From: Cupriavidus basilensis
GTDB lineage: Bacteria; Pseudomonadota; Gammaproteobacteria; Burkholderiales; Burkholderiaceae
Length of the DNA: 64,000 bases
Reading direction: 5' to 3'
NCBI RefSeq assembly: GCF_008801925.2
Contig: NZ_CP062803.1
Coordinates: forward strand, 2,852,001-2,916,000
The translations under genes and the position numbers were made by a program. The notes beneath the pieces are model-generated. The model was given only the letters and a program-made list of their open reading frames with translations, ran no database searches and was not told where the DNA came from. Shown here one piece after another: positions 5,980-41,378 of this stretch; positions within the stretch are counted from its first letter, which is position 1, and each line of letters opens with the position of its first letter.

Positions 5980-6393
<414 letters not shown>

Positions 6394-6435
6394 TGTTGTT
6401 CGTGCCGTGCGCTTTGGGCCGGCAACGTGGCATCG

Positions 6436-6469
6436 ACAAAAAGGGCACTCCATGGAGTGCCCTTTTTGT
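6436..6469. terminator. 34-bp perfect palindrome, terminator after exbD
   Basis: ACAAAAAGGGCACTCCA is followed directly by its reverse complement. The transcript forms a hairpin with A-rich and U-rich flanks on both strands, so it can terminate in either direction. Confidence 0.85.
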
Positions 6470-6510
6470 TTGCGCTGACCCATCCTGCACGATTGAAAAT
6501 CACTATTGTA

Positions 6511-6530
6511 ATGATAACAATTCTCATTTA
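6511..6530 (+). promoter_or_regulatory. Fur-box-like operator upstream of hemP
   Basis: ATGATAACAATTCTCATTTA resembles the Fur consensus (GATAA-n-AT-n-TCATT). It is about 80 nt before hemP in an A/T-rich pocket of an otherwise GC-rich region, so hemP is probably repressed by Fur-iron. Confidence 0.72.
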
Positions 6531-6610
6531 ATATCTAGCCAACTTGAACCCGGTCGTGACCGCTCGCAGTCCCGCGTAGCCGCCACGGACCACCGGACCG
6601 GAGCCCGCCC

Positions 6611-6943
6611 ATGAGCACCCTGACCCTGCCGCTGTCGCAACCGCATGAAGTCACCCGTCGCCGCCTTTCTCTGCGCCGGGTCGAAGTCAATCCCAACAAG
6701 GCTGCGCAGGCGCGGCGCGAGAGCCCCGCCAGCGCAGCGATCGAATCAATGAAATCTGCTGTAGCTGCCCTGCCCGCCCGGCTCGAAGCGCTGGTGCGCG
6801 ACAGCCTGCCCGCTGCGCCCGCAGGGGATGCGGTGCCCCTGGATTCGTTGATGCGTGGCGCCAACCTGCTGCCGATCCTGCATAACGGCGAGGTCTACAC
6901 GCTGCGCATCACGCGCTATGGCAAGCTGATCCTGACGAAGTGA
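6611..6943 (+). CDS. hemP: HemP-family hemin uptake protein, long form
   Basis: The last 35 residues (SLMRGANLLPILHNGEVY, then TLRITRYGKLILTK) match the HemP family, a small protein needed for hemin uptake or its regulation in several proteobacteria. Typical members are about 60-80 aa. This one is 110 aa because of an N-terminal extension rich in Arg, Ala and Ser. An upstream Fur-like site and the adjacent tonB cluster support an iron/heme role. The start could be at a later ATG (for example MKSAVAAL, about residue 48), which would give a family-sized protein of about 64 aa. Confidence 0.8.
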   Translation: MSTLTLPLSQPHEVTRRRLSLRRVEVNPNKAAQARRESPASAAIESMKSAVAALPARLEALVRDSLPAAPAGDAVPLDSLMRGANLLPILHNGEVYTLRITRYGKLILTK

Positions 6944-7125
6944 CCCGTGCCCGGGCGCGCACGCGCCAGCCCAAGCCATGCAGTGGGAAACCATCGTGGC
7001 AACCATGTAACGCGGTACGGGATTTCGATGCAAGAAGGGCTACCGGAACCGGCAGCCCGATGCCAAAGCCGTCGACAGGCATCAGCATAGGGAGCACAAG
7101 CGATTTGCTCCGCAGTCAGCAGGAG

Positions 7126-7160
7126 GTGCTGGGCAGTGAGCCACGCTCACTGCCCAGCAC
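7126..7160. repeat. 16-bp perfect hairpin between hemP and the GlcG-type gene
   Basis: GTGCTGGGCAGTGAGC (7126-7141) and its exact complement (7145-7160) are separated by only CAC. No T-run follows on either strand. It lies 25 nt past the stop of the leftward GlcG-family gene, so it may act as a transcript 3' end or a barrier between two convergent genes. Confidence 0.6.
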
Positions 7161-7185
7161 GGCCGCCTCTGTTTGCAGGCGAGTA

Positions 7186-7593
7186 TCAGACGCCCAGGGC
7201 GGCGATGCCCGCACGCGCGATCTGCGCGTCTTCGGTCGACTTCACGCCCGACACGCCAACTGCACCCACGACCTGGTCATTGACCACGATAGGCACACCA
7301 CCTTCCAGCATGCCTTGCAGCACCGGCGCGGTCATGAAAGAGTGGCGGCCGTTGTTGATCATGTCTTCGTAAACCTTGGACTCGCGACGGCCCAGCGACG
7401 ACGTGCGCGCCTTTTCGGTGGCGATGTAGCTCGAAATCGGTGCAGCGCCATCCAGGCGTTGCAATGCCAGCAGGTGACCACCGTCGTCCACGATGGCAAT
7501 TGAAACTGCCCATTGGTGATTCTTGGCTTCCAGCTCGGCTGCGGCCAGTACCTTCTTCACATCATCTGCCGTCAGCACGGTTTTTTGCTGCAT
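7186..7593 (-). CDS. GlcG/HbpS family protein
   Basis: The 135-aa product has the family hallmarks AVSIAIVDDGGHLLALQRLDGA, a central KARTSS segment and the C-terminal GGVPIVVNDQVVGAVGVSG. Family members include the heme-binding HbpS and proteins encoded near glycolate or propanediol enzymes; the biochemical role is often unknown. The start at 7593 (MQQKTV) has GAGGAGAG 5 nt upstream. An ORF extension further upstream lacks such a site. Nearness to hemP is suggestive of heme but not proof. Confidence 0.82.
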   Translation of the reverse strand: MQQKTVLTADDVKKVLAAAELEAKNHQWAVSIAIVDDGGHLLALQRLDGAAPISSYIATEKARTSSLGRRESKVYEDMINNGRHSFMTAPVLQGMLEGGVPIVVNDQVVGAVGVSGVKSTEDAQIARAGIAALGV

Positions 7594-14941: not shown

Positions 14942-15017
14942 TGGAGCGGGAGACGAGGCTCGAACTCGCGACCTCAACCTTGGCAAGGTTGCGCTCTACC
15001 AACTGAGCTACTCCCGC
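14942..15017 (-). tRNA. tRNA-Gly (anticodon GCC)
   Basis: 76 nt including CCA. Acceptor GCGGGAG pairs with CTCCCGC, the anticodon loop is TTGCCAA and the T arm is GAGTTCGAGCCTC. Its 3' end matches 16 of 18 positions of the att core at 15096-15113, but the 3' end points left, away from the ICE, so this copy is not the direct insertion target. Confidence 0.97.
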
Positions 15018-17061: not shown

Positions 17062-17937
17062 ATGCAGGTCGTATCCATCATTTCAACGAAAGGTGGCGTC
17101 GGCAAGACGACCACGGCCGCCAACCTCGGCGGGCTCGCCGCGGACGCGGGGCTGCGCGTGCTGCTGCTCGATCTCGACGTGCAGCCCACCTTGTCCTCCT
17201 ACTACGATCTGGCTCACCGCGCGCCCGGCGGCATCTATGAGCTGCTGGCGTTCAACGAGCGCGGTCTCGACCAGCTCGTGTCCCGCACCATCATCGCGGG
17301 CCTGGACCTGGTGCTCTCGAACGACCACCGGGGTGAACTGAACACCTTGCTGCTGCACGCGCCAGACGGGCGCCTGCGGTTGCGCCACCTGCTGCCGGCG
17401 CTGGCGCCGCTCTATGACCTGGTGCTAATCGACACCCAAGGCGCGCGCTCGGTGCTGTTGGAGATGGCGGTGCTCGCCTCCGGCCTGGCGCTGTCACCCG
17501 TGACCCCGGAAATCCTTGCGGCCCGCGAACTGCGGCGCGGCACCATGCAGTTGCTGGAGGACATCGCGCCGTATCGGCACCTTGGCATCGAACCGCCACC
17601 GCTGCACCTACTCATCAATCGTGTCCACCCCGTGTCCGCCAACGCACGCATGATCCAGCAGGCGCTGCACGACCTATTTCAGGATCACACGGGCATCCGC
17701 GTGCTGGGCACCGACGTGCCGGCCATCGAAGCCTATCCGCGCGCTGCAACCCGCGGCATGCCGGTGCATCGCGTCGAGTATCGACAGCCACCAGGCAGAG
17801 TTGCGCCCGCTGCGCTCGACACCATGCGCACGCTCGCCGGCGAACTGTTCCCGCAGTGGCAAGACAGATTCGCCCGCGTGTCCGGCCGTCCTCCACGTTC
17901 TATTGAAACCGGGAGGTCCCGTGGCGAGCGCACATGA
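17062..17937 (+). CDS. parA: ParA-family partition ATPase of the ICE
   Basis: 291 aa. The N-terminus has the deviant Walker A KGGVGKTTTAANL at about residues 10-22, then a LLLDLDVQP switch segment and LVLIDTQGA. These mark the ParA/Soj ATPases that help maintain plasmids and excised ICEs. The coding end overlaps the next gene's GTG start by 17 nt, so the two are translationally linked. In ICEclc, parA acts together with the adjacent small gene shi on growth of transfer-competent cells; transfer of that role to this element is inference. Confidence 0.92.
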   Translation: MQVVSIISTKGGVGKTTTAANLGGLAADAGLRVLLLDLDVQPTLSSYYDLAHRAPGGIYELLAFNERGLDQLVSRTIIAGLDLVLSNDHRGELNTLLLHAPDGRLRLRHLLPALAPLYDLVLIDTQGARSVLLEMAVLASGLALSPVTPEILAARELRRGTMQLLEDIAPYRHLGIEPPPLHLLINRVHPVSANARMIQQALHDLFQDHTGIRVLGTDVPAIEAYPRAATRGMPVHRVEYRQPPGRVAPAALDTMRTLAGELFPQWQDRFARVSGRPPRSIETGRSRGERT

Positions 17938-18181
17938 ACTGTCCCGTGGCCACAAGCGACTGCGCGCCCTGATCGAGTTTGCGGTGAGCGAAGGCTGGCA
18001 CGTCAAACGTACTCGGGGTGGACACCTCAAATTCACCAAGACCGGCTGCGCCGCCATCTACACCAGCTCGACAGCGAGCGATTACCGGGCAGACCTCAAT
18101 GCCCGTGCGCAGATCCGCCGAGCCGAGCGCGAGGCCCGCATGGCCCGGCCCGCCAACGCCGAGGGATGCGGCCATGGCTGA
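17921..18181 (+). CDS. small HicA-like protein between parA and parB (position of ICEclc shi)
   Basis: 86 aa from a GTG at 17921 with GGGAGG 4 nt upstream. No ATG is available in this part of the frame. The core (RLRALIEFAVSEGWHVKR, then TRGGHLKFTKTG and SSTASDYRADLNARAQI) resembles the dsRNA-binding-like HicA toxin fold, including the GGH-x-KF strand with its histidine. No HicB partner is adjacent. It overlaps parA and parB, so all three are probably cotranslated. By position it corresponds to shi of ICEclc. Toxin activity is only an inference. Confidence 0.72.
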   Translation: MASAHELSRGHKRLRALIEFAVSEGWHVKRTRGGHLKFTKTGCAAIYTSSTASDYRADLNARAQIRRAEREARMARPANAEGCGHG

Positions 18182-19838
18182 GATGACCTCCCAGGACATG
18201 GCCGGCAAGCTGCTTGCCGCCGGGTTCGAGCGCAGTGGGCCATCGGCCACGGCTTTGAGTGACCCCATCGCCGACACGCCGATGGTCGTGACGCTGGACC
18301 AGTTGCGGCCCTACGACCACGATCCCCGCAAAAAGCGCAACTCGGCCTACGATGAAATCAAGGCCTCCATCCGCGAGCGCGGCCTGGATGCGGCGCCAGC
18401 CATCACACGCCGTCCTGGCGAGGCGCACTACATCATCCGCAACGGCGGCAACACCAGGCTGGCGATCCTGCGCGAACTCTGGACAGAAACGAAGGACGAG
18501 CGCTTCTTCCGCATATCGTGCCTGTTCCGGCCGTGGCCTGCGCGCGGGGAGATCGTCGCGCTGACCGGGCACCTCGCCGAGAACGAACTGCGTGGCGGCT
18601 TGACGTTCATCGAGCGCGCCCTCGGCGTCGAGAAGGCGCGCGAGTTCTATGAAGCGGAAAGCAGCACGACCTTGAGCCAGTCCGAGCTGGCCCGTCGCTT
18701 GGGCGCCGACGGCTTCCCCGTGCAGCAGTCACACATCAGCCGCATGGCCGATGCGGTGCGCTACCTGCTGCCTGCGATCCCGACCGTGCTGTATGGTGGC
18801 CTCGGTCGCCACCAGGTCGAGCGGCTGTCGGTCATGCGCAAGGCCAGTGAGCGCACGTGGGAGCACTATGCCAAGGGCCGCTCCCTGCCGCTCGACTTCG
18901 ACAGTTTCTTCCAAGAAGTGCTGTCGCAGTTCGATACCCAGGCCGACGAGTTCTCGCCGCAGCGTGTGCAGGACGAGTTGATCGGTCAGATGTCCGAGCT
19001 GCTGGGCATCGACTACGACGTGCTTGCCCTGGACCTGACCGAATCCGAGAGCCGCCACCGCGCCCTGGTCAGCGACCCAACCCCGCCATCGGCGCCGCCG
19101 GCATTGCCTGAGCCTGGGGCCATCGCACGGCCGCCGATTGAACCGGCACCGTCCCCCGCCACAGCAGCACATTCTGCAGGCCACTCTGCCGCCGCGCCGA
19201 CAAGGCCCCAGGACGATGCGGCCCCGCGTGAGGCATCCGCAGCCACCCCTGCGGCAGCGGCTGGCGATCTACTTGACGAGCACATCGTCTCTCCGGCACC
19301 CACGACGCAGCGGCTCCAGTCCATCCAGCGCATGGTCGCCGACCAGTTGGGCGATGCGCTTCCGCCCGACTTCTCGGCCAACGTGCTGCAGTCGATTCCC
19401 GTGCAGGCCGGTGGCCTCTATCCCATCTCGGACATCTGGCATATCGACCCAGGTCTCGACGCACCCGGCCGCCTGCGCGTCCACATCGCGCAGTTCGCGC
19501 GCGAGATCGCGGGCGAGGTCGACCTGGACGCGTGTGTCGAGGATCGTTCAGATGGCATCGGGTTCGCGTGTCGTGCCCCGACCCAGGTTTCGTCGCCGCT
19601 CGCACGTGCCGTGCTCGCGCTGCTGGTTTCCCTGGCCGGTCAGCAGTCGGCCGACGTGGGCTTGGACGGCGGGCACTTCGTCACCGACCTGCCAGCGCTG
19701 TTGCACGGCCAAGGCCAACGTCATGCCGACGGGGCCCGGCGATTGAGCGACACCGCGCTGGTCAAGCTGTTTCGTCTGCTGCGGCTGGCCCGGCGCCTGC
19801 TGGATCTGGAAGCCGGCGCTCTCGGTCCTGGGACCTGA
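18174..19838 (+). CDS. parB: ParB-family protein of PFGI-1-class ICEs
   Basis: 554 aa. The N-terminal ParB/Sulfiredoxin-type nuclease-like fold holds LDQLRPYDHDPRKKRN and HYIIRNGGNTRLAILREL (in place of the usual GERR box). A helix-turn-helix region follows (LSQSELARRLGADGFPVQQSHISRM). Residues from about 300 to 360 are a Pro/Ala-rich linker, and the C-terminal part begins near LQSIQRMVADQLGDALP. The ATG at 18174 overlaps the preceding gene by 8 nt and has GAGGGA at 7 nt. It probably binds a centromere-like site on the element with ParA. Confidence 0.9.
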   Translation: MAEMTSQDMAGKLLAAGFERSGPSATALSDPIADTPMVVTLDQLRPYDHDPRKKRNSAYDEIKASIRERGLDAAPAITRRPGEAHYIIRNGGNTRLAILRELWTETKDERFFRISCLFRPWPARGEIVALTGHLAENELRGGLTFIERALGVEKAREFYEAESSTTLSQSELARRLGADGFPVQQSHISRMADAVRYLLPAIPTVLYGGLGRHQVERLSVMRKASERTWEHYAKGRSLPLDFDSFFQEVLSQFDTQADEFSPQRVQDELIGQMSELLGIDYDVLALDLTESESRHRALVSDPTPPSAPPALPEPGAIARPPIEPAPSPATAAHSAGHSAAAPTRPQDDAAPREASAATPAAAAGDLLDEHIVSPAPTTQRLQSIQRMVADQLGDALPPDFSANVLQSIPVQAGGLYPISDIWHIDPGLDAPGRLRVHIAQFAREIAGEVDLDACVEDRSDGIGFACRAPTQVSSPLARAVLALLVSLAGQQSADVGLDGGHFVTDLPALLHGQGQRHADGARRLSDTALVKLFRLLRLARRLLDLEAGALGPGT

Positions 19839-19853: not shown

Positions 19854-20414
19854 ATGTCCGCACCTAACCCACTCAACCAGGCCGTCATCGCGCAGGCGCT
19901 CTACGATCTGCGCAACGGGCAACTGCGCCGCTGCAAGGCGATGGGATTCGGTGAGGAAGAATTGGATGCGCTCAAGCATCCGGCGCTGATCAGCGTACTG
20001 GCCAATGCCAGCGTCTCGTGGTGCTCTGTCTCGGTGAACCGGGAAGTGCTCCGGCGATTGCTCAAACAGGCGCAGGACGTGGAGAAGGAGATCGCCACCG
20101 TCGATCGCATGTTGCGCCTGGGGGCCAGTACGGAAATGGCGAGCCGTTTTTATGGGCTGACGCACCAGGAAGTCGCGCTACGGCGTGAAGTTCTCGGCCT
20201 GCCCAAACGCAAGGGGCGCCATCCGGTTCTGGACGAGGAGCAGGACACCGAGCTGTGGCGACGCTGGAAGGCCGTGACCAGCAGCAGGAATGTCGAGCTG
20301 GAGGATGAGACCTCGGTTCTTGATGCGGCAATGGACCTCGCCGAAGGCATGGAACTGCCGCTGTCGGTGGTCTGGGCTGCGATCAAGAACTGGATCGATC
20401 AGGGATTGGGTTGA
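19854..20414 (+). CDS. DUF2857 family protein (STY4526 type; position of ICEclc bisD)
   Basis: 186 aa, soluble, helical. The segment NQAVIAQALYDLRNGQLRRCKAMGFGEEEL and the later LGASTEMASRFYGLTHQEVALRREVLGLP are typical of DUF2857. The latter looks like a helix-turn-helix of the FlhC/ParB kind. It follows parB by 15 nt and precedes the STY4528-type gene by 3 nt. In ICEclc the genes at this place encode the BisD-BisC activator that switches on transfer. I assign that role by position only. Confidence 0.8.
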   Translation: MSAPNPLNQAVIAQALYDLRNGQLRRCKAMGFGEEELDALKHPALISVLANASVSWCSVSVNREVLRRLLKQAQDVEKEIATVDRMLRLGASTEMASRFYGLTHQEVALRREVLGLPKRKGRHPVLDEEQDTELWRRWKAVTSSRNVELEDETSVLDAAMDLAEGMELPLSVVWAAIKNWIDQGLG

Positions 20415-20417
20415 GTC

Positions 20418-21668
20418 ATGGCCGTGGACGACGCTGCACCACGAGCACCACGCCAAGGCCCGGTCGCCCTCGCTGATCTGTTCGACAGCGCGCTGAAAGA
20501 CCTTGCACCGAAACCTCGCCCGCCCGCGTCCGCGCCAGCTCCCGCATCCGCAACATCTCCTGTCTCCGCAACCGGCGACGGTTTTCTGTTCAGCGGCAAT
20601 CGGCACGAGAGCGTGCCGCGACGGCTGTTCCTGGACCGACGCCTGACGCCGCTGGAACGCAATGCCTGGCAAGTCTTTCGGATGATGCTCAACGAGGATG
20701 GGGTCACGGCGTTTCCGACGTATGAGCAACTTCGCCCGTGGCTCGCGTCAATGCCCTGCGCCGGACAGGCCTCTCACGAGACCGTGGCACGGGCGCTGAC
20801 GCTGTTGCGCCTGACTCGCTGGTTGAGTCTCGTGCGCCGCAGGCGTGACCCCAAGACCGGGCGCATCCTCGGCAACCTCTACGTCCTGCACGATGAGCCC
20901 CTGACGCCTTTCGAGGCGATGCAGCTCGACCCGGACTACTTGGAGCTCGTCAGCCAAGCCCTGGGCCATTCGGCCAAGGCCGTCCAGGTCGTGGGCTTGC
21001 ACACCCTCAAGGAAATCGCCGAAGACCCGTTGTTGTCTGGCCGCACGTTGCCCTCGCGGCTGCAGGTCCTTGCCGAACGCCTCGCGAGCCAGGGCATTGG
21101 GTCGCAGGAGAGTTATCCACAGAAGGATAGGGTTCACGATTCCGAAGAAGGGGCGCCGAGCCTTCTTCGGAATTCTGATGACCCCTCTTCGGATTCCGAA
21201 GCAGGGCCGAAACCCGCGTCAGACGGCGCTCTTCGGAATCCGAAGCAGGACCGTACTGTACGTAGTAGTCGTATGAATGAAGTACGTACTACCGCGCGTG
21301 AGCGTGGGCAGGCGCGTGCGATGCCAGGAGTTCGCCTGCCTGATCGCTTTCTCGGCTTGAAGGAAGAGCAGCAGGCCGCCGCCATCGTGGCATTGCAGCA
21401 GGTCGATGCTCCGCTACGCCAGGCCGTGCTGGACGAATGGGCGGATCGCTGTCGCGGCAGCACCATCCGCAACCCGGCAGGCTACCTGTTCGGCATCATC
21501 CAGCGCGCCATCCGTGGCGAGTTCAACGCCTGGGCCAAGCAAGCCGGGTCAGCACCGCCACCTGCCCCTGCACGAGATGCACCGCCTGAACCACCGCGCA
21601 ATGTGGTTCCACCCGAGGTGGCCCGGCAGCACATTGACCGGCTGCGCGACCTTCTGCGCAGTAGCTGA
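20418..21668 (+). CDS. STY4528-family ICE protein, possible replication or activator protein
   Basis: 416 aa. The N-terminal region has an Ala/Pro linker and then RRLFLDRRLTPLERNAWQVFRMML and SHETVARALTLLRLTRWLSLVRRRRD, a winged-helix-like DNA-binding part as in plasmid replication initiators. Residues about 230-295 form a low-complexity polar linker. The C-terminal domain includes LPDRFLGLKEEQQAAAIVALQQV, then NPAGYLFGIIQRAIRGEFNAW. STY4528-type proteins are called pathogenicity-island replication proteins in some annotations. By position the gene may also correspond to bisC. The linker is encoded by DNA with a DnaA-box match and repeated palindromes. Confidence 0.78.
   Translation: MAVDDAAPRAPRQGPVALADLFDSALKDLAPKPRPPASAPAPASATSPVSATGDGFLFSGNRHESVPRRLFLDRRLTPLERNAWQVFRMMLNEDGVTAFPTYEQLRPWLASMPCAGQASHETVARALTLLRLTRWLSLVRRRRDPKTGRILGNLYVLHDEPLTPFEAMQLDPDYLELVSQALGHSAKAVQVVGLHTLKEIAEDPLLSGRTLPSRLQVLAERLASQGIGSQESYPQKDRVHDSEEGAPSLLRNSDDPSSDSEAGPKPASDGALRNPKQDRTVRSSRMNEVRTTARERGQARAMPGVRLPDRFLGLKEEQQAAAIVALQQVDAPLRQAVLDEWADRCRGSTIRNPAGYLFGIIQRAIRGEFNAWAKQAGSAPPPAPARDAPPEPPRNVVPPEVARQHIDRLRDLLRSS
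21113..21245. other. putative origin-like repeat cluster inside the STY4528-type gene
   Basis: TTATCCACA at 21113-21121 is an exact match to the strong DnaA box. A hairpin follows: ATTCCGAAGAAGG (21139-21151), a 9-nt loop, and the exact complement (21161-21173). Then come two near-identical palindromes, CTTCGGATTCCGAAG (21187-21201) and CTTCGGAATCCGAAG (21231-21245), 44 bp apart and both inside a longer shared sequence ending GCAGG. All four sites share the CTTCGGAAT half. The array falls in a non-conserved linker of the protein. This looks like an iteron-type origin, but function is inferred. Confidence 0.55.
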
Positions 21669-21719: not shown

Positions 21720-21882
21720 CTATCCCCAGGGGATAGATGTACTACAAGCTGTAACGCCGACAGGCACGGCATGGCACTTCGGTCCAGGGGGGCCGTAATG
21801 GCGTCGGTTGCATGAGCGCACGCACCATTTGCGCGAGCAGCGCTCCATGGCTTTCGATGGAGCTATCCCCTGGGGATAGCTC
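21720..21882. promoter_or_regulatory. two TATCCCC-GGGGATA palindromes upstream of PFL_4669
   Basis: CTATCCCCAGGGGATAG at 21720-21736 and a 23-bp perfect palindrome at 21860-21882 with core CTATCCCC-T-GGGGATAG lie in the 331-nt gap after the STY4528-type gene, centres 143 bp apart. A further inverted pair GCTCCAT/ATGGAGC (21842-21863) overlaps the second. The same core recurs before topB at 23883. These are probable operator sites for an ICE regulator. The gap has no gene. Confidence 0.65.
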
Positions 21883-21999
21883 GTGTCACAGGCCACCGCT
21901 GCCACGACAACCGGGTCCCGGTTCATTTCGGTTTGTTGACTGACTGCCTTCCGTTGCGTGCCGATCCTGACCGCTCCTTTTCCCAAGCGAGCGGACGCC

Positions 22000-22788
22000 A
22001 TGGCAACCAACGAACCTCTGCAACTCAATCTCGGCTCTTTGCGCAGCGCGATGTCGCTGACGCTTCACACCCACCACGCCTCGCGCATCTGGCATGGCCG
22101 CGCCGCCGCCGAGGGGCGACCCGGCATCGTCGGCCTGAACGGCTACATCGCCGTGATGAACAAGATGAAGCGCGGCTCGGAGCAGGACGACCCGTACAGC
22201 GACTGGTGGATGTTGCGCATCGAGGAAAAGCTCGACCAGACCAGGACCACGTTGCAATCGCTGCGCGAGCAGGTTGACCAGGCACTGGCCGGCGTGCCTG
22301 CGGCGTTGAGCCTGGGTGAGAACCTCAACGTGCAGCCGGTGAAGCTCCCCTTGTTCGTGAACGCGCAGCTCGGCTTTGCCGCCGTCTATCTGCTGGCCGA
22401 CTACGACGACATCGCCCGCAAGCTGATCCTCGCCCACCACACCGCGCTGATCGATCGCTCGACGTTGGAGCGCTGGCTCAACGAAGGTGCCCACGCGCTG
22501 CGCAGCCTGTTCAGCCTGGCCCAGCAATACCGCTACTCGGGCTGCACCCGCGACGACTTCGCGGCCAAGAACGCCGCAGCTCGGGCAGCATTGGAGAAGT
22601 TCGGCGAACTGCCGCAGGACGTGCTCGAAGGCATGCGCCGCTCGAAGTTTGCGCCGCCCGTCGTGCGCCGTGGTCTGCAACAGCGTGGTGATAGCGCTGC
22701 CGCAGCCGCATCTCCCACCGACGAAGGCGCTGCCGCCGATTCGGCCGAGGCCAAGTCCACAGCCGCCGGCGAGGACGAACCGGCATGA
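22000..22788 (+). CDS. PFL_4669-family ICE protein (TIGR03761)
   Basis: 262 aa, soluble. Sequence such as SLTLHTHHASRIWHGRAAAEGRPGI and LPLFVNAQLGFAAVYLLADYD is characteristic of the PFL_4669 family, found at this place in PFGI-1-class ICEs. A C-terminal Ala/Glu-rich tail follows. Function is unknown; a role in element replication or regulation is commonly supposed. The ATG at 22000 is used because the longer frame upstream (from 21958) starts in the intergenic operator region. The stop overlaps the next ATG by 4 nt (ATGA). Confidence 0.85.
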   Translation: MATNEPLQLNLGSLRSAMSLTLHTHHASRIWHGRAAAEGRPGIVGLNGYIAVMNKMKRGSEQDDPYSDWWMLRIEEKLDQTRTTLQSLREQVDQALAGVPAALSLGENLNVQPVKLPLFVNAQLGFAAVYLLADYDDIARKLILAHHTALIDRSTLERWLNEGAHALRSLFSLAQQYRYSGCTRDDFAAKNAAARAALEKFGELPQDVLEGMRRSKFAPPVVRRGLQQRGDSAAAAASPTDEGAAADSAEAKSTAAGEDEPA

Positions 22789-23385: not shown

Positions 23386-23826
23386 ATGAGCACACAATTC
23401 ATCGGCGAGGGCAACATCGGATCGCCTCCCGAGTACCGCGAATTCCCCAATGGCAACGACGATCCTCGCCGGTTGCTCCGGCTGAACGTGTACTTCGACA
23501 ACCCCGTCCCCACCAAGGGCGGCGAGTTCGAGGACCGCGGCGGCTTCTGGGCGCCGGTGGAACTCTGGCACCACGACGCCGACCGCTGGCAGCAGCTCTA
23601 CCAGAAGGGCATGCGGGTGCTGGTCGTCGGCCGCATGGAGCGCGACCCCTGGACGGACAACGAAGATCAGCCGCGTGAGACTTGGCAGGTCAACGCGCGC
23701 AGTGTCGGCATCCTGCCGTACCGCATCGAGTCTGTGGCCCTCAGCCCGAAGCCACAGGAGGCAGAGCCGAAGCCCCAGGCCACCCAGGAATCGACGGCGC
23801 CGAAAGAGACCAAGCGCAGGAAGTGA
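23386..23826 (+). CDS. ssb: ICE-encoded single-stranded DNA-binding protein
   Basis: 146 aa. The OB-fold strands read FIGEGNIGSPPEYREFPNG, LLRLNVYFDNPV, APVELWHHDADRWQQLYQKGMRVLVVGRMER and RETWQVNARSVGILPYRIESV, matching the divergent SSB group of PFGI-1-class ICEs. A Lys/Pro/Glu-rich tail follows, without the DIPF tip of chromosomal SSB. It probably coats single strands during transfer or replication of the element. A clear AGGAG-like site (GGAGATT) lies upstream of the start. The next gene is preceded by a palindromic operator. Confidence 0.88.
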   Translation: MSTQFIGEGNIGSPPEYREFPNGNDDPRRLLRLNVYFDNPVPTKGGEFEDRGGFWAPVELWHHDADRWQQLYQKGMRVLVVGRMERDPWTDNEDQPRETWQVNARSVGILPYRIESVALSPKPQEAEPKPQATQESTAPKETKRRK

Positions 23827-23882
23827 TCGGGCATGGAGGGCGGCTGCCGCAGTGCTTCGCCGCCCTCCATGCGCTGCGAATT

Positions 23883-23897
23883 ATCCCCAGGGGATAG
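23883..23897. promoter_or_regulatory. third TATCCCC-GGGGATA palindrome, upstream of topB
   Basis: TATCCCCAGGGGATA lies 213 nt before the topB start and shares its core with the two sites at 21720 and 21860. It is in a 283-nt spacer with no other gene. Confidence 0.6.
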
Positions 23898-24109
23898 CTC
23901 CACCAACGTCCACCGAGTTCCACGCGCGCTCCCGGAAATCGCGGCTCTCGGCCCGCACACTTCCGGCCACGCACCTTCCCCGCACTCGCCATTTCATCGG
24001 CGTGAAAGCGGTCGCTGCCGCATGCGGCTTGTTTGCTGCTGCCAGGGGCTGCGCTCGGCATCCTCGATCCCAGCAACTCCATGAACAACAGGAATCGGGA
24101 TGGACGGAT

Positions 24110-26140
24110 ATGCGGCTGTTCTTGTGCGAGAAGCCCTCCCAGGGCAAAGACATTGGCCGGATTCTCGGCGCCACGCAGCGCGGTGAAGGCTGCCTCAACG
24201 GTTCCGGCGTCACGGTCACCTGGTGCATCGGCCATCTCGTGGAGGCGGCGCCGCCCGAGGCCTACGACGAGCAGCTCAAACGATGGTCCGTTGAGCAGTT
24301 GCCCATCATTCCCCAGCACTGGCGGGTCGAGGTCAAACCGAAGACCGCCACGCAATTCAAGGTCGTCAAGGCGCTCTTGGCGAAGGCGACTCACCTGGTT
24401 ATCGCCACCGATGCCGACCGCGAGGGCGAATTGATCGCCCGCGAGATCGTGGAGCTTTGCGGCTACCGCGGCCCCATCGAACGCCTGTGGCTGTCGGCGC
24501 TCAACGATGCGTCCATTCGGGCGGCACTGGGCAAGCTGCGGCCTTCGGCCGAGACGCTTTCGATGTACCACTCGGCGCTGGCGCGCTCCCGTGCGGATTG
24601 GCTCGTGGGCATGAACCTGAGCCGGCTGTTCACGGTGCTGGGGCGACAGGCGGGTTACGACGGCGTGCTGTCGGTCGGCCGCGTACAGACCCCGACGCTC
24701 AAGCTCGTTGTGGACCGCGACCGCGAGATCGCGCGCTTCGTGTCCGTACCATACTGGGCCATCGCCGTGTCCCTGTTCGCAGGCGGTTCGACTTTCGCCG
24801 CGCAATGGGTTCCACCCGATGCGTGCACCGACGACGCAGGCCGCTGCCTGCGGCAGCCGGTCGCACAGCAGACCATGCAGCAGATCCGCGCTGCGGGCAG
24901 TGCCCACGTCGTGTCGGTGGAGACTGAGCGTGTCCGCGAAGGCCCGCCGCTGCCGTTCGACCTGGGCACCTTGCAGGAAGTGTGTTCCAAGCAGCTTGGG
25001 CTGGACGTGCAGGAAACCTTGGAGATTGCCCAAGCCCTGTACGAGACGCACAAGGCCACGACGTACCCCCGCTCGGACTCCGGCTACCTGCCCGAGAGCA
25101 TGTTTGCCGAAGTGCCCACCGTTCTCGACAGCCTGCTCAAGACCGATCCCTCGCTGCGCTCGATCATGGGCCAGCTCGACCGCTCGCAGCGCTCGCGCGC
25201 CTGGAACGATGGCAAGGTCACGGCGCACCACGGCATCATCCCGACGCTCGAACCGGCGAAGCTCTCCGCCATGAGCGAGAAGGAACTGGCCGTGTACAGG
25301 CTCATCCGGTCGCATTACCTGGCGCAGTTCCTCCCTCACCACGAGTTCGACCGCACTGTGGCCAAGTTTTCGTGCGGGGGGCAGAACCTGGCGGCCACGG
25401 GCAAGCAGGTTGTCATCCCGGGTTGGCGCCAGGTGCTCGCCGAGCCGCAGGCCGAAGACGGTGATGGCGAGGGCGATACTGCGGTCCGCGCCCAGGTGCT
25501 GCCCGCGCTGCCGAAACTGTATGAGGGCCTGGCATGCCAGGTGGCCGACGTCGATCTCAAGGCACTCAAGACGCTGCCGCCCAAACCGTACACGCAAGGC
25601 GAGTTGGTCAAGTCCATGAAAGGCGTCGCCAAGCTGGTGTCCGATCCCCGCCTGAAGCAGAAGCTCAAGGATACGGTTGGCATCGGCACCGAAGCGACGC
25701 GGGCCAACATCATCGGCGGCCTGATCGCTCGCGGCTACCTCGTGAAGAAGGGGCGCGCCATCCGCGCCTCGGATGCGGCTTTCACTTTGATCGATGCCGT
25801 GCCTGCGGCGATTGCCGACCCTGGCACCACCGCCGTCTGGGAACAGGCGCTCGACATGATCGAGGCCGGACAGCTCACCCTGGACGTGTTCATCGGCAAG
25901 CAGGCCGCGTGGATTTCGCAGTTGATTGCGCAGTACGGCAGCGCCTCCCTGTCCATCAAGGTTCCCCAAGGGCCGGCATGCCCGCAGTGCGGCGCACCCA
26001 CGCGCCAGCGCAGCGGCAAGAGCGGCCCGTTCTGGTCGTGCAGCCGCTACCCGGACTGCAAAGGCACGCTGCCAGTCGAATCCGGCAGCTCCAAGCGCGG
26101 CGCCTCGCGCCCGCGCCGTAGCGGCCGCAAAGGCTCCTGA
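24110..26140 (+). CDS. topB: DNA topoisomerase III
   Basis: 676 aa, type IA topoisomerase. The N-terminal TOPRIM domain starts MRLFLCEKPSQGKDI and contains ATDADREGELI. The catalytic tyrosine is in TTYPRSDSGYLPE near residue 318. Toward the end, IGTEATRANII is a family signature, and a zinc ribbon (CPQCG with CSRYPDCKG) lies near residue 623. The ATG at 24110 is the true start because the frame upstream crosses the intergenic operator. ICE-borne topB copies probably resolve intermediates during excision or replication. Confidence 0.95.
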   Translation: MRLFLCEKPSQGKDIGRILGATQRGEGCLNGSGVTVTWCIGHLVEAAPPEAYDEQLKRWSVEQLPIIPQHWRVEVKPKTATQFKVVKALLAKATHLVIATDADREGELIAREIVELCGYRGPIERLWLSALNDASIRAALGKLRPSAETLSMYHSALARSRADWLVGMNLSRLFTVLGRQAGYDGVLSVGRVQTPTLKLVVDRDREIARFVSVPYWAIAVSLFAGGSTFAAQWVPPDACTDDAGRCLRQPVAQQTMQQIRAAGSAHVVSVETERVREGPPLPFDLGTLQEVCSKQLGLDVQETLEIAQALYETHKATTYPRSDSGYLPESMFAEVPTVLDSLLKTDPSLRSIMGQLDRSQRSRAWNDGKVTAHHGIIPTLEPAKLSAMSEKELAVYRLIRSHYLAQFLPHHEFDRTVAKFSCGGQNLAATGKQVVIPGWRQVLAEPQAEDGDGEGDTAVRAQVLPALPKLYEGLACQVADVDLKALKTLPPKPYTQGELVKSMKGVAKLVSDPRLKQKLKDTVGIGTEATRANIIGGLIARGYLVKKGRAIRASDAAFTLIDAVPAAIADPGTTAVWEQALDMIEAGQLTLDVFIGKQAAWISQLIAQYGSASLSIKVPQGPACPQCGAPTRQRSGKSGPFWSCSRYPDCKGTLPVESGSSKRGASRPRRSGRKGS

Positions 26141-26863
26141 CCGCCCCCGTTCCCCGTGAGCCGTGCCCGCCTTCGGCGGCGTGGCCCCTGTCCCGCACTC
26201 CGCCGCATGCCCTGCGGGACGCCCAGCGCGCAACGCCTTCTTGATCCGTGTGCGCGTCCCGCCCAGCCGTCCCCGGCCGCGGGACCTGAAGGTAGCTTCT
26301 CTGCGAGCCGCACCACGCGCGTTCTGTTGATCTGCGTTTCTTCCGCCCTCTGCGAAGGGTCTCCCGGTGGCTTGCCAGGCTGCACGAGCCACCGGGAGAC
26401 CCTTCGTGGTCAGCGGTAATCGGTGCCGGTGCCCGCCGGTGCAAAAACGGGCTCCCTTTGTGCGCGGATGTGCGCCAGACGATGCCGGCCCCAGCCACGA
26501 CATGGGCCGGGTGTGATTGCTTGATGAGCAGACGGTTCTAGCGACGACCGGGCCTGCCAATCAGCCCACGGGTGGTTCCTCTTTTCTCCCGAGCCGAAGG
26601 CCGTTGGGCCTTCGGCGCCATTCTCCTGCCCATCAACGTCCCGGCCCGGCCATTGGCCTGGGCCACACGAACAGGAGAGACGACATGCACCCTCAACCTT
26701 GCGCACCGCTGCTGTACGGCAGACGGAGGTCGAGAACGGCATGCCCGCCTATCGCGCGGCCATCGCCAATGGTACGCTCGGCTGCAGCCGAGGCCGTAGC
26801 CCAAAGGCTGGACTACCTCTTTTGCAGAGGTAAACCTCGGGATGAACTGGGCGAAAACATGCC
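26141..26863. other. gap between topB and the metal module, with a hairpin and a possible gene remnant
   Basis: 723 nt. At 26593-26616 there is a perfect 10-bp hairpin (GCCGAAGGCC, loop GTTG, GGCCTTCGGC). It is followed by AGGAGAG and an ATG at 26685. That is the hairpin, ribosome site, start layout seen before many genes at 33-49 kb, but no convincing protein continues. A short frame ending VENGMPAYRAAIANGTLG just before 26823 may be the residue of a gene cut by arrival of the metal module. The rest shows nothing I recognise. Confidence 0.4.
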
Positions 26864-28574: not shown

Positions 28575-28973
28575 TCAGGCGGGCTCGGCCAAGCTGTTGA
28601 GAATGCCGCACTCGCGCGAGGTTCGGGCGCTATCGCAGGAGCGTCGCAGATCCATTAACTCGCGCTCCAAGGCGCGCAATTCCTTCATCTTGGTCCGCAC
28701 TTGCGCGATATGAGCGTCGACCAGCGCGTTCACCTCGCCGCAGCCCAACTCTGGCCGATCCCGTAAGTTCAGCAGTTGACGGATCTCATCCAGCGTCATG
28801 TCCTTCGCCCGGCAGCGGCGGATGAACAGCAAGCGCTGCAAATGGACTTCGTCATAGAGCCTGAAGTTGCCCTCGCTACGTGCAGGCTCGGGCAGCAAGC
28901 CTTCTGACTCGTAAAAGCGCACGGTCTGCACCAAGCAATCTGCCTTCTTGCCCAGTTCACCGATCCGCATCAT
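28575..28973 (-). CDS. cadR: MerR-family Cd/Pb-responsive regulator (CadR/PbrR type)
   Basis: 132 aa. The N-terminal helix-turn-helix (MRIGELGKKADCLVQTVRFYESEGLLPEP) is followed by the dimerisation helix and three cysteines at residues 78, 113 and 122, the pattern that binds Cd or Pb in CadR and PbrR. The C-terminus is short and lacks the His-rich tail of P. putida CadR. It is divergent from the ATPase gene, with a MerR-type operator in the 91-nt space between the start codons. Whether it senses lead or cadmium best cannot be decided from sequence. Confidence 0.9.
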   Translation of the reverse strand: MMRIGELGKKADCLVQTVRFYESEGLLPEPARSEGNFRLYDEVHLQRLLFIRRCRAKDMTLDEIRQLLNLRDRPELGCGEVNALVDAHIAQVRTKMKELRALERELMDLRRSCDSARTSRECGILNSLAEPA

Positions 28974-28993
28974 GGTTGCTTCCTATAAAAAAC

Positions 28994-29024
28994 TTGACTC
29001 TATATCTACTAGAGGTTTTCTAAT
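28994..29024 (+). promoter_or_regulatory. MerR-type operator-promoter of cadA
   Basis: TTGACT (28994-28999) and TCTAAT (29019-29024) are separated by 19 bp holding the dyad ACTCTA-TATCTAC-TAGAGGT. The predicted transcript starts near 29031, which excludes ATG codons at 28948, 29023 and 29026 as starts of the ATPase. Confidence 0.85.
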
Positions 29025-29064
29025 GATGGCATCCGGGGAAAACCTTGTCAATGAAGAGCGATCT

Positions 29065-31977
29065 ATGAACAAAGAACCTTCCAGCCCATGCGCCTGCTCC
29101 GGCGGCAATGGCCAACAGACGGCGTGCGCCAGTGAGCAGGCCAGCACTGAAACCACCGTTTTCCACGTGAGCAACATGGATTGCCGCAATGAGGAAGCAC
29201 TGGTGCGGCGAACGCTGGAGGGCATGCCCGGTGTCGAGCGGCTCCTGTTCGATCTTCCGCAGCGTTTGTTGACCATTTCGCACCGCGAAGTCTCGGCCGA
29301 TGCCTTGGAGCAAGCGCTGAATTCGGTGGGCATGAAGGCTCAGGCTGTCCGAGACGCCGCCGTGTCGACCACCTACCGCATCGAGAACATGGACTGCCCG
29401 AGCGAGGAGAAACTCATCCGCTCGCACCTCGGGGCAGTCGAGGGAATTCAGGACCTCGACTTCGACCTCGCTGAGCGCACCCTGTCGGTGAAACACCTCG
29501 CTCAGGCACGCGCGCAGATGGAGCAGGTCCTGGCCTCGATCGGCATGCGCGCCAAGGAGCAGACCTTCGGCCACACGGGGCCGATCGAAGCCGCGGCTGT
29601 GATCCCATCCTCGGCCCTGCAGCAGCAACCAACCGCTGCCGTTTCCGCGCCGCCGATCGGCGAGCGGGTGACGTACCGGATCGAGAACATGGATTGCCCG
29701 ACGGAAGAAGCGCTGATCCGCGACCGGCTGGGCAAGCTGCCGGGTGTGACCGCGCTCGACTTCAATCTGATGCAGCGTGTGCTGGGAGTCCAGCACACGC
29801 TGGCGACCTCAGCGCCGATCGAGAAGGCGCTTGCTTCCATTGGAATGCAGGCTGCGCGGCAGGACATGCAGACAGCCACCACGGTACTTCGCATCGCGAA
29901 GATGGACTGTCCGACCGAGGAAAGTCTGATCCGCGGCAAGCTGCAAGGCATGCCGGGCGTGCAGGGAATGGATTTCAACCTGATGCAGCGCACGCTCACG
30001 GTTCGGCACACACCCGACGCGATCAAGCCGGCAGTCGAAGCCATCGAATCGCTGGGCATGGAAGCCGAGGTCCAGAGGACTGATGAGCCGCGCGATGCCC
30101 CGGTGGCCGCGCACAAGACCAATTGGTGGCCGATGGCGGTTTCGGGCGTTGCGGCGGTGGCCGCCGAAGGCGTGTACTGGGTCAACGACGGCAATCATTG
30201 GGCCGTGATCGTGCTGGCACTGGTTTCGATCTTCACCGGCGGCCTCAGCACCTACAAGAAGGGCTGGATCGCGCTGAAGAACCTCAACCTGAACATGAAC
30301 GCCCTGATGGCCATCGCGGTCACCGGCGGCATGGCGATCGGCCACTGGCCGGAGGCCGCCATGGTCATGTTCCTGTTCGCGTTGGCGGAAGTGATCGAGG
30401 CGAAGTCGCTGGACCGCGCCCGCAACGCCATTCGGGGGCTGATGGACTTGGCGCCCGAGACCGCGACCGTGCGGCAGGCCGATGGCTCATGGACAGAGCT
30501 GCCGGCCAAGGAGGTCGCAAAGGGCGCGGTGGTCCGCGTGCGTCCTGGCGAGCGCATCGCACTGGACGGCCTGATCACCTCGGGTCGATCGGCCATCAAC
30601 CAGGCGCCCATCACCGGCGAGAGCCTGCCCGTCGAGAAGGCCGAAGGTGACCAGGTCTTCGCCGGAACCATCAATGAGACCGGCTCTTTCGAATACAAGG
30701 TGACCGCAGGCGCCAGCGACTCGACGCTCGCGCGCATCATCCATGCCGTGGAGTCCGCGCAGGGCAGCCGTGCGCCCACGCAGCGCTTCGTCGACCAGTT
30801 CGCCCGCGTCTACACGCCGGCGGTGTTCGCGGTGTCCGTGCTGGTTGCCGTCGTGCCGCCGCTCGCCTTCGGCGGCGCATGGTTTGACTGGGTCTACAAG
30901 GCCCTGGTACTGCTGGTGATCGCCTGCCCCTGCGCTCTGGTCATCTCCACGCCGGTCACCATCGTCAGCGGCTTGGCCGCTGCCGCCCGACGCGGCATCC
31001 TGATCAAGGGTGGCGTCTACCTGGAGGGCGGGCGCAAGCTCAAGGCGTTGGCCCTGGACAAGACCGGCACACTCACACATGGCAAGCCCGAGCAGACCGA
31101 CTTCGTGCCGCTGATCGGCGAGGCGCAGGAAGTTGCCGCCTGGGCCGCAAGCCTCGCGGCACGCTCGGACCATCCTGTGTCTCAGGCCATCGCCCGCAAG
31201 GCGAACCGTGACGGCATCGCGCTGCACGAGGTCGACGACTTCGCGGCGCTGCCTGGCCGCGGCGTGCGCGGCCGCGTCGCCGGGCGCATGTTGCACATGG
31301 GCAACCACAGGCTCGCCCAGGAGCTGGGCCTGAGCGAAGCGACGCTCCAGGCTCGGCTGGAGACCCTGGAGCGCCAAGGCAAGACAGCGATCCTGCTGAT
31401 GGACGATGCGACCGTGCTCGGCATTTTTGCAGTGGCCGACACCGTGAAGGAAACCAGCCGTGAGGCGGTGGCCGACCTGCAGGCGCTGGGTGTGCGCACG
31501 CTGATGCTGACGGGGGACAACCAGCACACGGCCGCGGCCATCGCTGCCCAGGTCGGAATCTCTGAAGCCCGTGGTGACCAACTGCCCGAAGACAAGCTCA
31601 AGACCATCGAAAGCCTGGTCGGCGGCGAGGGCCAGGTGGGCATGGTGGGCGACGGCATCAACGATTCGCCCGCGCTCGCCCGTGCCGACATCGGCTTCGC
31701 CATGGGCGCGGCCGGCACCGACACCGCGATCGAAACAGCCGACGTCGCCCTGATGGACGACGACCTGCGCAAGATCCCCGCCTTCATCCGGCTGTCGCGT
31801 AGCACTGCGGCGATCCTCACGCAGAACATCGTTCTGGCCCTTGGCATCAAGGCGGTGTTCCTTGCGTTGACGTTCACAGGGCATGCCACCATGTGGATGG
31901 CTGTGTTCGCTGACATGGGGGCAAGTCTTTTGGTTGTCGTCAATGGGCTGCGCCTCCTGAAGTTCAAGGCGGCATGA
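29065..31977 (+). CDS. cadA: P1B-type heavy-metal ATPase with four N-terminal HMA domains (CadA/PbrA type)
   Basis: 970 aa. Four ferredoxin-like metal-binding domains come first, each with an MDC-x-x-EE motif (cysteines 40, 111, 211 and 282) in place of the CxxC of copper pumps. A short Cys-rich leader (CAC at 9-11, C21) precedes them. The pump core has the CPC motif in VIACPCALVIS near residue 622, DKTGTLT near 665 and GDGINDSPAL, all standard for Zn/Cd/Pb export. Most relatives have one or two such domains. The start at 29065 lies downstream of the predicted transcript start and has a GAAGAG site. Confidence 0.92.
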   Translation: MNKEPSSPCACSGGNGQQTACASEQASTETTVFHVSNMDCRNEEALVRRTLEGMPGVERLLFDLPQRLLTISHREVSADALEQALNSVGMKAQAVRDAAVSTTYRIENMDCPSEEKLIRSHLGAVEGIQDLDFDLAERTLSVKHLAQARAQMEQVLASIGMRAKEQTFGHTGPIEAAAVIPSSALQQQPTAAVSAPPIGERVTYRIENMDCPTEEALIRDRLGKLPGVTALDFNLMQRVLGVQHTLATSAPIEKALASIGMQAARQDMQTATTVLRIAKMDCPTEESLIRGKLQGMPGVQGMDFNLMQRTLTVRHTPDAIKPAVEAIESLGMEAEVQRTDEPRDAPVAAHKTNWWPMAVSGVAAVAAEGVYWVNDGNHWAVIVLALVSIFTGGLSTYKKGWIALKNLNLNMNALMAIAVTGGMAIGHWPEAAMVMFLFALAEVIEAKSLDRARNAIRGLMDLAPETATVRQADGSWTELPAKEVAKGAVVRVRPGERIALDGLITSGRSAINQAPITGESLPVEKAEGDQVFAGTINETGSFEYKVTAGASDSTLARIIHAVESAQGSRAPTQRFVDQFARVYTPAVFAVSVLVAVVPPLAFGGAWFDWVYKALVLLVIACPCALVISTPVTIVSGLAAAARRGILIKGGVYLEGGRKLKALALDKTGTLTHGKPEQTDFVPLIGEAQEVAAWAASLAARSDHPVSQAIARKANRDGIALHEVDDFAALPGRGVRGRVAGRMLHMGNHRLAQELGLSEATLQARLETLERQGKTAILLMDDATVLGIFAVADTVKETSREAVADLQALGVRTLMLTGDNQHTAAAIAAQVGISEARGDQLPEDKLKTIESLVGGEGQVGMVGDGINDSPALARADIGFAMGAAGTDTAIETADVALMDDDLRKIPAFIRLSRSTAAILTQNIVLALGIKAVFLALTFTGHATMWMAVFADMGASLLVVVNGLRLLKFKAA

Positions 31978-38375: not shown

Positions 38376-40362
<1,987 letters not shown>

Positions 40363-40380
40363 GGAAAAGGGAGGTGTTCG

Positions 40381-41378
40381 ATGAACGCCTACAGCCGCGC
40401 CAACCGCCGCATCTACGCGGCCTTGTCCGATCCCCTGTCGGCCACCCACCGGCACCGCCTCGACGATCTGCTCAAGCGCCACGACAACGGCAAGACGACC
40501 TGGCTGGCCTGGCTGCGCCAGTCGCCCGTCAAGCCGAACTCGCGCCACATACTCGAACACATCGAGCGCCTCAAAGCCTGGCAGGCGCTCGACCTGCCTT
40601 CCGGCATCGAGCGGTCGGTGCACCAGAACCGCCTGCTCAAGATCGCCCGCGAAGGCGGCCAGATGACGCCCGCCGATCTGGCCAAGTTCGAGGCACAGCG
40701 CCGCTACGCGACCCTGGTGCGCTCGCCATCGAGGGCATGGCCACCGTCACCGACGAAATCATCGACCTGCACGACCGCATCCTGGGCAAGCTGTTCAACG
40801 CTGCCAAGCACAAGCATCAGCAGCAGTTCCAGGCGTCCGGCAAGGCGATCAACGCCAAGGTGCGGCTGGCCACCTCGATCAAGCAGGGCACGGTGACGGC
40901 CTCGCTGATGCTCAGGAAACTCGGCAGCTACCCGCGCCAGAACGGCCTGGCCGTGGCGCTGCGCGAGCTGGGCCGCATCGAGCGAACGCTGTTCATCCTG
41001 GACTGGCTGCAAAGCGTCGAGCTGCGCCGCCGCGTGCATGCCGGACTGAACAAGGGCGAAGCCCGCAACGCGCTAGCCCGCGCCGTGTTCTTCAACCGGC
41101 TGGGCGAAATCCGCGACCGCAGTTTCGAGCAGCAGCGCTACCGGGCCAGCGGCCTCAACCTGGTGACGGCGGCCATAGTGTTGTGGAACACGGTCTATCT
41201 GGAACGGGCCTCAAACGCCTTACGCGGTCACGGCCAGACTGTCGATGACGCCCTGTTGCAGTACCTGTCGCCGCTGGGCTGGGAGCACATCAACCTGACC
41301 GGCGATTACCTCTGGCGCAGCAGCGCCAAGATCGGCGCGGGCAAGTTCAGGCCGCTACGACCGCTGCAACCGGCTTAG
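40381..41378 (+). pseudogene. internally deleted, frameshifted Tn3-family transposase (tnpA) remnant
   Basis: Three defects show on comparison with the Tn21/Tn501 transposase as I recall it. The first 200 or so residues are absent (homology begins [14 protein letters not shown]). One G is missing near 40718 (CTGGTGCGCTC for an expected CTGGTGGCGCTC), which shifts the frame. At about 40863-40870 the sequence jumps from KAINAKVRL to [15 protein letters not shown], removing some 500 codons with the catalytic DDE residues. The junction falls in a short CGGCTG-like match, suggesting microhomology deletion. The C-terminal end ([16 protein letters not shown]) is intact and overlaps the right inverted repeat. 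Confidence 0.88.

Follow-up and report, generated by a model that had tools for sequence, protein, structure and literature searches.

How integrative and conjugative elements (ICEs) of the ICEclc type are copied once they have been excised is unsettled. These elements and their pKLC102-type relatives spread catabolic, metal and drug traits. Relaxase-dependent replication of the excised forms has been reported, and the account, in its accessible part, leaves room for another mechanism (PMC6561031). The question is raised here by a 64 kb stretch of Cupriavidus basilensis DNA (NZ_CP062803.1, 2,852,001-2,916,000, forward strand; referred to as the window, to which positions are relative), which contains an ICEclc-type element. 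Within this element, an array of palindromes lies inside a gene of the STY4528 family. With a probability of about 0.62, we consider 21111-21293 to be the core of an origin of theta-type replication which lies within the gene encoding its own initiator. This is the best reading because the conservation of the DNA exceeds what coding requires, the array accompanies the gene, and the predicted fold of the protein appears to resemble that of initiators whose origins are intragenic.

The array comprises a DnaA-box match, two degenerate and two perfect palindromes, a hairpin and an AT-rich dyad (Table 1). A preliminary description of this DNA reported the DnaA box, the 13-bp hairpin and two palindromes at 21113-21245, and all are found where it placed them. 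The conserved DNA reaches to about 21293, through the AT-rich GTAC dyad, which that description did not list. The DnaA box alone is unremarkable, as the window contains four matches with one mismatch against 3.7 expected. Sites 3 and 4 are 44 bp apart from start to start and are the sole matches in the 64 kb at up to two mismatches; two matches were reached in 0 of 100 shuffles. Site 1 starts 54 bp before site 3, the same distance as in pKLC102-type genes, and the LLRN codons at site 2 are near-invariant. The 13-bp hairpin sits within an 18-nt inverted repeat (89%). There are seven TTCGGA/TCCGAA half-sites in the gene, six of them inside the array, and 1.4 are expected by synonymous codon shuffling (p=0.005). 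The top repeated 8-mer of the window gene has p=0.035-0.045; a stricter test, based on two similar 15-mer palindromes, is borderline for this gene alone (p=0.05). These three tests were preferred to a generic dyad count, which proved too noisy for GC-rich genes. The GC content is 0.43 in the dyad, 0.57 in the array before it and 0.66-0.67 in the remaining gene.

Close relatives were drawn from the best 80 of 285 loci, together with the 18 of 300 genomes of the order which had matches. There are 54 distinct genes, each with at least 59% identity, and 23 of these were chosen for diversity in the synonymous comparison. Synonymous differences among the 23 amount to 9.5% in codons 232-292, which hold the array, versus 37.8% elsewhere. 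The five 61-codon segments with the lowest values in the gene all fall on the array (0.090-0.095, versus a median of 0.359 for all segments). The codons of the elements (TCC GAA, CTT CGG AAT, CCG AAG and GTA CGT) are nearly frozen across the 54 genes, and one 15-mer palindrome is read in two frames, as SSDSEA and as LRNPK. TTATCCACA is intragenic in 79 of the 80 loci, and 52 of the 54 distinct genes contain it; anywhere in the gene, TTCCGAAGA (site 1) occurs in 44 of the 54 and CTTCGGAA (site 2) in all 54. Of the distinct genes, 33 have two full palindromes and 52 have at least one; therefore, in some branches one of the two has been reduced to a half-site. The conservation of the array is at the level of DNA and exceeds coding need. 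Coding constraint alone is rejected on the strength of the synonymous constraint, the frozen element codons and the palindrome read in two frames. The preliminary description held that coding constraint is an insufficient explanation, which is borne out, and that the encoded linker is non-conserved, which is not: conservation of the DNA makes the residues at the elements near-invariant. It also named repeats absent or scrambled in close relatives as counter-evidence; the repeats persist in them.

The array also travels with the gene across distant lineages. The STY4528 proteins of pKLC102, Pantoea, Klebsiella, Citrobacter, Salmonella pSGI4 and Serratia have 30-41% identity to the window protein (32-34% for the last three), and these plasmid genes contain three to four GTTCGGNNNCCGAAC palindromes, not all of them free of mismatches, at the position of the window array. 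Distant STY4528 genes, pKLC102 included, have two to five palindromes of other classes at the equivalent position. Haemophilus ICEHin1056 has GTTCCANNNNGGAAC-like sites, and TTCAAAATTTGAA, GTGCAAATTTTGCAC, GTAAAGAATCTTAAC and others are found in further lineages. Two groups are kept separate in what follows: orphan STY4528 genes, with no ParB-family gene nearby (in genomes G142, G278, G072 and G265, where no ParB was found, and as the second of two copies in G237, whose 14.5-kb surroundings contain no ParB), and O-like genes, whose products share only the STY4528 C-domain. At least two similar palindromes are present above synonymous shuffles (p<=0.05) in 26 of the 41 full-length genes that do not belong to the orphan clade, in 0 of 6 orphan genes, and in 3 of 6 O-like genes, the latter six being hand-picked from 34 rows after inspection. 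The 41 include G452 and G506, in which no ParB was found, and one phage-labelled contig outside the ParB search. This test is missed by several lineages of class TTCAAA, which have imperfect sites, and by G452, G539, G630, G544, G314, G646 and G855. Palindromes in plasmid-type genes are spaced 44-54-44, 54-45-44, 45-44 or 33-33-45 bp apart. The genes that reach p<=0.05 (O-like genes, and STY4528 genes not in the orphan clade) have 75 spacings, of which 53 measure 44 bp (n=21), 33 bp (n=12), 45 bp (n=11) or 54 bp (n=9), near multiples of 11.

Directly after the palindromes, a dyad is found across lineages in which GTACGTA or GTAGTAGTA arms flank an AT-rich core. In 26 of 47 lineages these arms stand out above synonymous shuffles at p<=0.01, and the GC minimum of the whole gene falls within 40 nt of the dyad in 32 of the 42 lineages with a dyad, where 3.7 would be expected. 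A reading of GTAGTA arms as a DnaA-trio, as that motif is presented in the available portion of PMC8287927, is not claimed because many lineages carry GTACGTA instead. The DNA-level conservation, architecture, spacing, co-inheritance with the gene and AT-rich minimum are all computed here.

The 416-residue product scores 411.3 bits against its family model, NF040582, for which the cut-off is 130. An AlphaFold2 model based on 68 sequences predicts a winged helix at residues ~55-205, a disordered linker at 228-300, and a helical C-domain at ~300-375; the array codons fall within the predicted disordered segment. The model has the layout of a DNA-binding domain, a linker and a helical C-domain, with the site array in the linker DNA. 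A winged-helix part, called initiator-like in the preliminary description, is predicted in it, and the fold as predicted may resemble that of initiators which carry their origin within the gene. Structural matches of the model are a primosomal DnaB and RepA/Rep initiators; Foldseek gave no good match in the PDB and viral libraries. Neither RepA_N (PF06970) nor Phage_rep_O is among the 19 families which match any of the 68 members at E<=1. RP-C_C has a faint match in 14 of the 68 proteins (best E 0.054), and STY4528 weakly matches PHROG 391, 'replication initiation O-like', with an E of 0.028, below significance.

In the mechanism that we propose, the winged-helix domain of STY4528 would bind the phased palindromes as iterons, and the initiator complex would be built on one helix face. 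This complex would melt the AT-rich GTAC dyad just downstream, with DnaA at the conserved box assisting in the window lineage. The DnaD/DnaB-like C-domain would recruit the replicative helicase, and the single-stranded DNA-binding protein (SSB) and topoisomerase III of the element would act behind it. Origin DNA within coding sequence may be tolerated because only a flexible linker between two domains is encoded there. Of these steps, binding, melting and helicase loading are inferred, as is replication of the element after excision. An origin had been proposed, conditionally, in the preliminary description; it is the best reading of the sequence and the model.

Several known systems have features in common with this arrangement. 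RepA_N initiators of the pSK41 type are described as having an N-domain which binds boxes in the middle of the gene, origin DNA which encodes a linker, a helical C-domain and DnaD-like folds (accessible text of PMC5703833). However, they have no detectable sequence relation to STY4528, which is found on Gram-negative ICEs with palindromic boxes followed by a GTA-type AT-rich dyad. The phage lambda O gene also has iterons and an AT-rich region in the middle of an initiator gene (PMC7466680, from the part available), but the spacing and site sequence of STY4528 differ, and it is ICE-borne with its own SSB and topoisomerase. In repABC plasmids oriV lies inside the initiator gene, repC, at an AT-rich stretch; in contrast to STY4528, repC is presented in the available sections as being without iterons or DnaA boxes (PMC3155836). 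An oriV has been proposed in the replication module of Haemophilus islands and is said to agree with those of the larger family (PMC2258188, as far as its accessible text goes). For PFGI-1, a putative oriV of ~1,100 bp was proposed in 2009, directly upstream of PFL_4669, with four perfect 23-bp palindromes of core TTCGGAATCCGAA, and PFGI-1 is said to encode no Rep protein (PMC2647930, accessible sections). The window palindromes share this core near STY4528 and PFL_4669. That proposal was sequence-based and concerned another branch, and those sections state neither a location in an initiator gene nor an extension to ICEclc-type elements. The preliminary description's word 'undescribed' therefore requires qualification, as palindromes with this core had already been proposed for that oriV. 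In the annotated pKLC102 record, four such palindromes lie within STY4528 coding DNA. Among the paper titles listed from the openly (Creative Commons, CC) licensed literature, none places an origin inside the STY4528 gene. As far as this literature goes, several points are apparently new: that an intragenic location is common in the family, that the array is constrained as DNA and regularly spaced, that the palindrome class switches between lineages, that an AT-rich dyad is present, and that the whole fits initiators whose origins are embedded in their genes.

The palindromes could have a different reader. It is possible, although we regard it as doubtful, that they are bisS (parS-like) loading sites of BisD, a ParB-like CTP clamp encoded just upstream; bisS boxes were reportedly described as the sites of this clamp by Antar et al. 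in 2025. The clamp would load at the palindromes, slide along the element and activate transfer promoters, and at most the AT-rich dyad and the DnaA box would belong to an origin. The ParB-family gene of the window ends 0.6 kb upstream of STY4528. It is probably BisD, because the ICEclc gene numbers (98147, 97571, also written UR97571, 96323 and 95213) match the ends of the window ParB, DUF2857, STY4528 and PFL_4669 genes. The ICEclc counterparts of the window ParB-family, DUF2857 and PFL_4669/AcaB genes are probably bisD, bisC and inrR. Several palindromes lie near a ParB-family gene, and of the records searched, 26 of 32 in one set and 15 of 15 in another have a TIGR03764 ParB. Two further observations favour a ParB site. 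The strongest evidence for a ParB site is that the six orphan genes have no palindromes and yet keep the AT-rich dyad (arms p<=0.03 in four of six). In G855, the palindrome GGTTCAGNCTGAACC is also found between ParB and DUF2857. It should be noted that the two orphans examined in this respect (L240, 7090-9777; L241, 5063-7721) adjoin a phage-type integrase, with no ParB, SSB or topoisomerase matches in 14.5-15 kb, and are perhaps minimal integrative elements. In the G855 locus (L249; 3020, 3703 and 5402), GGTTCAGNCTGAACC occurs inside STY4528 and also toward PFL_4669 and in the ParB-DUF2857 gap, an exception to the intragenic rule. Against a ParB site, the palindromes are confined to STY4528 in 15 plasmid and 80 ICEclc-type loci, and the ParB recognition helix is nearly constant (SHIS[RK]M) in the window, pKLC102, G837, G1036 and G933 despite different palindromes. 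In STY4528, by contrast, E121, with which the recognition helix begins, tracks the CC palindrome class (15 of 15 versus 1 of 19), but it is also kept in six of six palindrome-less orphans, and in both proteins there are other columns with scores as high. The lineages are not independent, and descent confounds the mutual information of protein columns with palindrome class, so that E121 is only a hint; it is outranked by columns of STY4528 that lie outside this helix and by a ParB column that is not in the helix-turn-helix. The window sites lie inside the proposed initiator gene and are regularly spaced, which would set them apart from bisS/parS, and spacing in ~11-bp multiples suits a cooperative initiator complex. 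Arrays also occur without this ParB. No ParB was found in the 87% complete draft of G506, yet its gene has a repeated 8-mer (p=0.005); arrays are present in the O-like genes L095, L096 and L098, with ParB in 0 of 9 in a genome search where no control matched either. Some O-like proteins match replication-initiation PHROGs, and L130 (from G367, outside the ParB search) also has an array. The initiator-like genes at L096 1018-2016, L098 1099-2037 and L130 1189-2505 share only the STY4528 C-domain and have intragenic arrays of their own, some followed by GTA-type arms. A sequence comparison of ParB with solved structures gave no match. Palindromes of these classes are not found in L243-L246, where ParB occurs without a full STY4528 nearby. 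We place the initiator ahead of the ParB site at the probability given at the outset. It is rather unlikely that one cassette has two readers, with STY4528 using the palindromes as iterons and the BisD clamp loading on the same palindromes.

The origin could also lie next to the gene. We consider it highly improbable that the vegetative origin is formed by intergenic repeats 3' of STY4528 (57-bp repeats in pKLC102 types, CTATCCCCWGGGGATAG here), with the intragenic array as a control or incompatibility element. In favour of this, L104, a P. aeruginosa plasmid, has 15 copies with a 57-bp period between STY4528 and PFL_4669 (6233-7273), L105 and G933 have 36-37-bp arrays 3' of STY4528, and Mavrodi et al. 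included the intergenic stretch in the PFGI-1 putative oriV (PMC2647930, accessible sections). However, the type of intergenic array varies by lineage and is short in the window (two palindromes), the promoter for the gene that follows should also be housed in this stretch, and in the material examined the array within the gene is the commoner feature. G583 has a 44-51-bp array, TGTTGCCANTGGCAACA, between STY4528 and PFL_4669. In the window, CTATCCCCWGGGGATAG has three matches at up to three mismatches versus 0.08 expected; the third, with one mismatch, lies at 23881-23897, before the topoisomerase domain start. Among the 80 loci, 109 of 156 degenerate matches fall within 600 nt after STY4528, and 21 loci have none. 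The CTATCCCCWGGGGATAG palindromes are possibly promoter operators. There is very little to recommend the view that the repeats act in RNA, by attenuation or mRNA structure, or that they merely reflect the coding constraint on a repetitive linker. Palindromes could make RNA hairpins, and the array would be transcribed with the gene, but the 15-mer in different frames, the fixed spacing in bp and the strong synonymous constraint oppose coding constraint alone, and different palindrome sequences at equal spacing favour DNA binding.

The gene row at 17-26 kb encodes ParA, ParB (TIGR03764), DUF2857, STY4528, PFL_4669/AcaB, DUF3158, SSB and topoisomerase III, and the conjugation genes TraD and TIGR03749 lie to its right. 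A perfect 20-bp inverted repeat with a 14-nt loop (26353-26406), possibly a terminator, lies 3' of the topoisomerase gene. The metal cargo of the window includes a P-type ATPase with HMA domains, a mercury(II) reductase and a match to part of a Tn3-type transposase domain.

Table 1. Coordinates of the array and of other features in the window.
Feature	Position	Strand	Remarks
DnaA-box match TTATCCACA	21113..21121	+	sole exact copy in window
Site 1, degenerate palindrome	21133..21147	+	right half TCCGAAG intact (21141-21147)
Hairpin, perfect 13-bp arms from sites 1 and 2	21139-21151 with 21161-21173	+	9-nt loop
Site 2, degenerate palindrome	21165..21179	+	left half CTTCGGA intact (21165-21171)
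Site 3, perfect 15-bp palindrome CTTCGGATTCCGAAG	21187..21201	+	read S-S-D-S-E-A
Site 4, perfect 15-bp palindrome CTTCGGAATCCGAAG	21231..21245	+	other frame, read L-R-N-P-K
AT-rich GTAC dyad GTACTGTACGTAGTAG...GAAGTACGTACTACC	21252..21293	+	candidate DNA unwinding element
Second palindrome class CTATCCCCAGGGGATAG	21720..21736	+	intergenic, upstream of PFL_4669 gene
Second-class palindrome, further copy CTATCCCCTGGGGATAG	21863..21879	+	between STY4528 and PFL_4669
tRNA-Gly	14942-15017		
ParA-family ATPase gene	17062..17937	+	
ParB-family gene (TIGR03764)	18018..19838	+	candidate alternative reader of palindromes
DUF2857 gene	19854..20414	+	
STY4528-family gene, 416 aa	20418..21668	+	NF040582
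PFL_4669/AcaB-family gene	21958..22788	+	
SSB gene	23386..23826	+	same module
Topoisomerase III open frame	23675..26140	+	family match from residue 146, ~24110
Metal cargo	28948-31977, 38674-40362, 40350-41378		

If the origin reading is true, the initiator-plus-origin cassette of ~1.25 kb would be a plasmid-like theta replicon for these elements. This would help to explain why relatives exist as free plasmids; in the plasmid collection, 33 records match the STY4528 protein, two of them over at least 80% of its length. Typing and incompatibility tests by palindrome class would become possible. If the palindromes are bisS, the result would still be of use, since much of the family would then share a conserved array of clamp loading sites at regular intervals. 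If a single cassette does serve two readers, replication after excision, partition and transfer-gene activation of ICEclc-type elements would be coupled at one site; the palindrome sequence, initiator and clamp would co-diversify, and the AT-rich GTA dyad would stay a fixed melting element. The copying of excised elements becomes a directly testable question.
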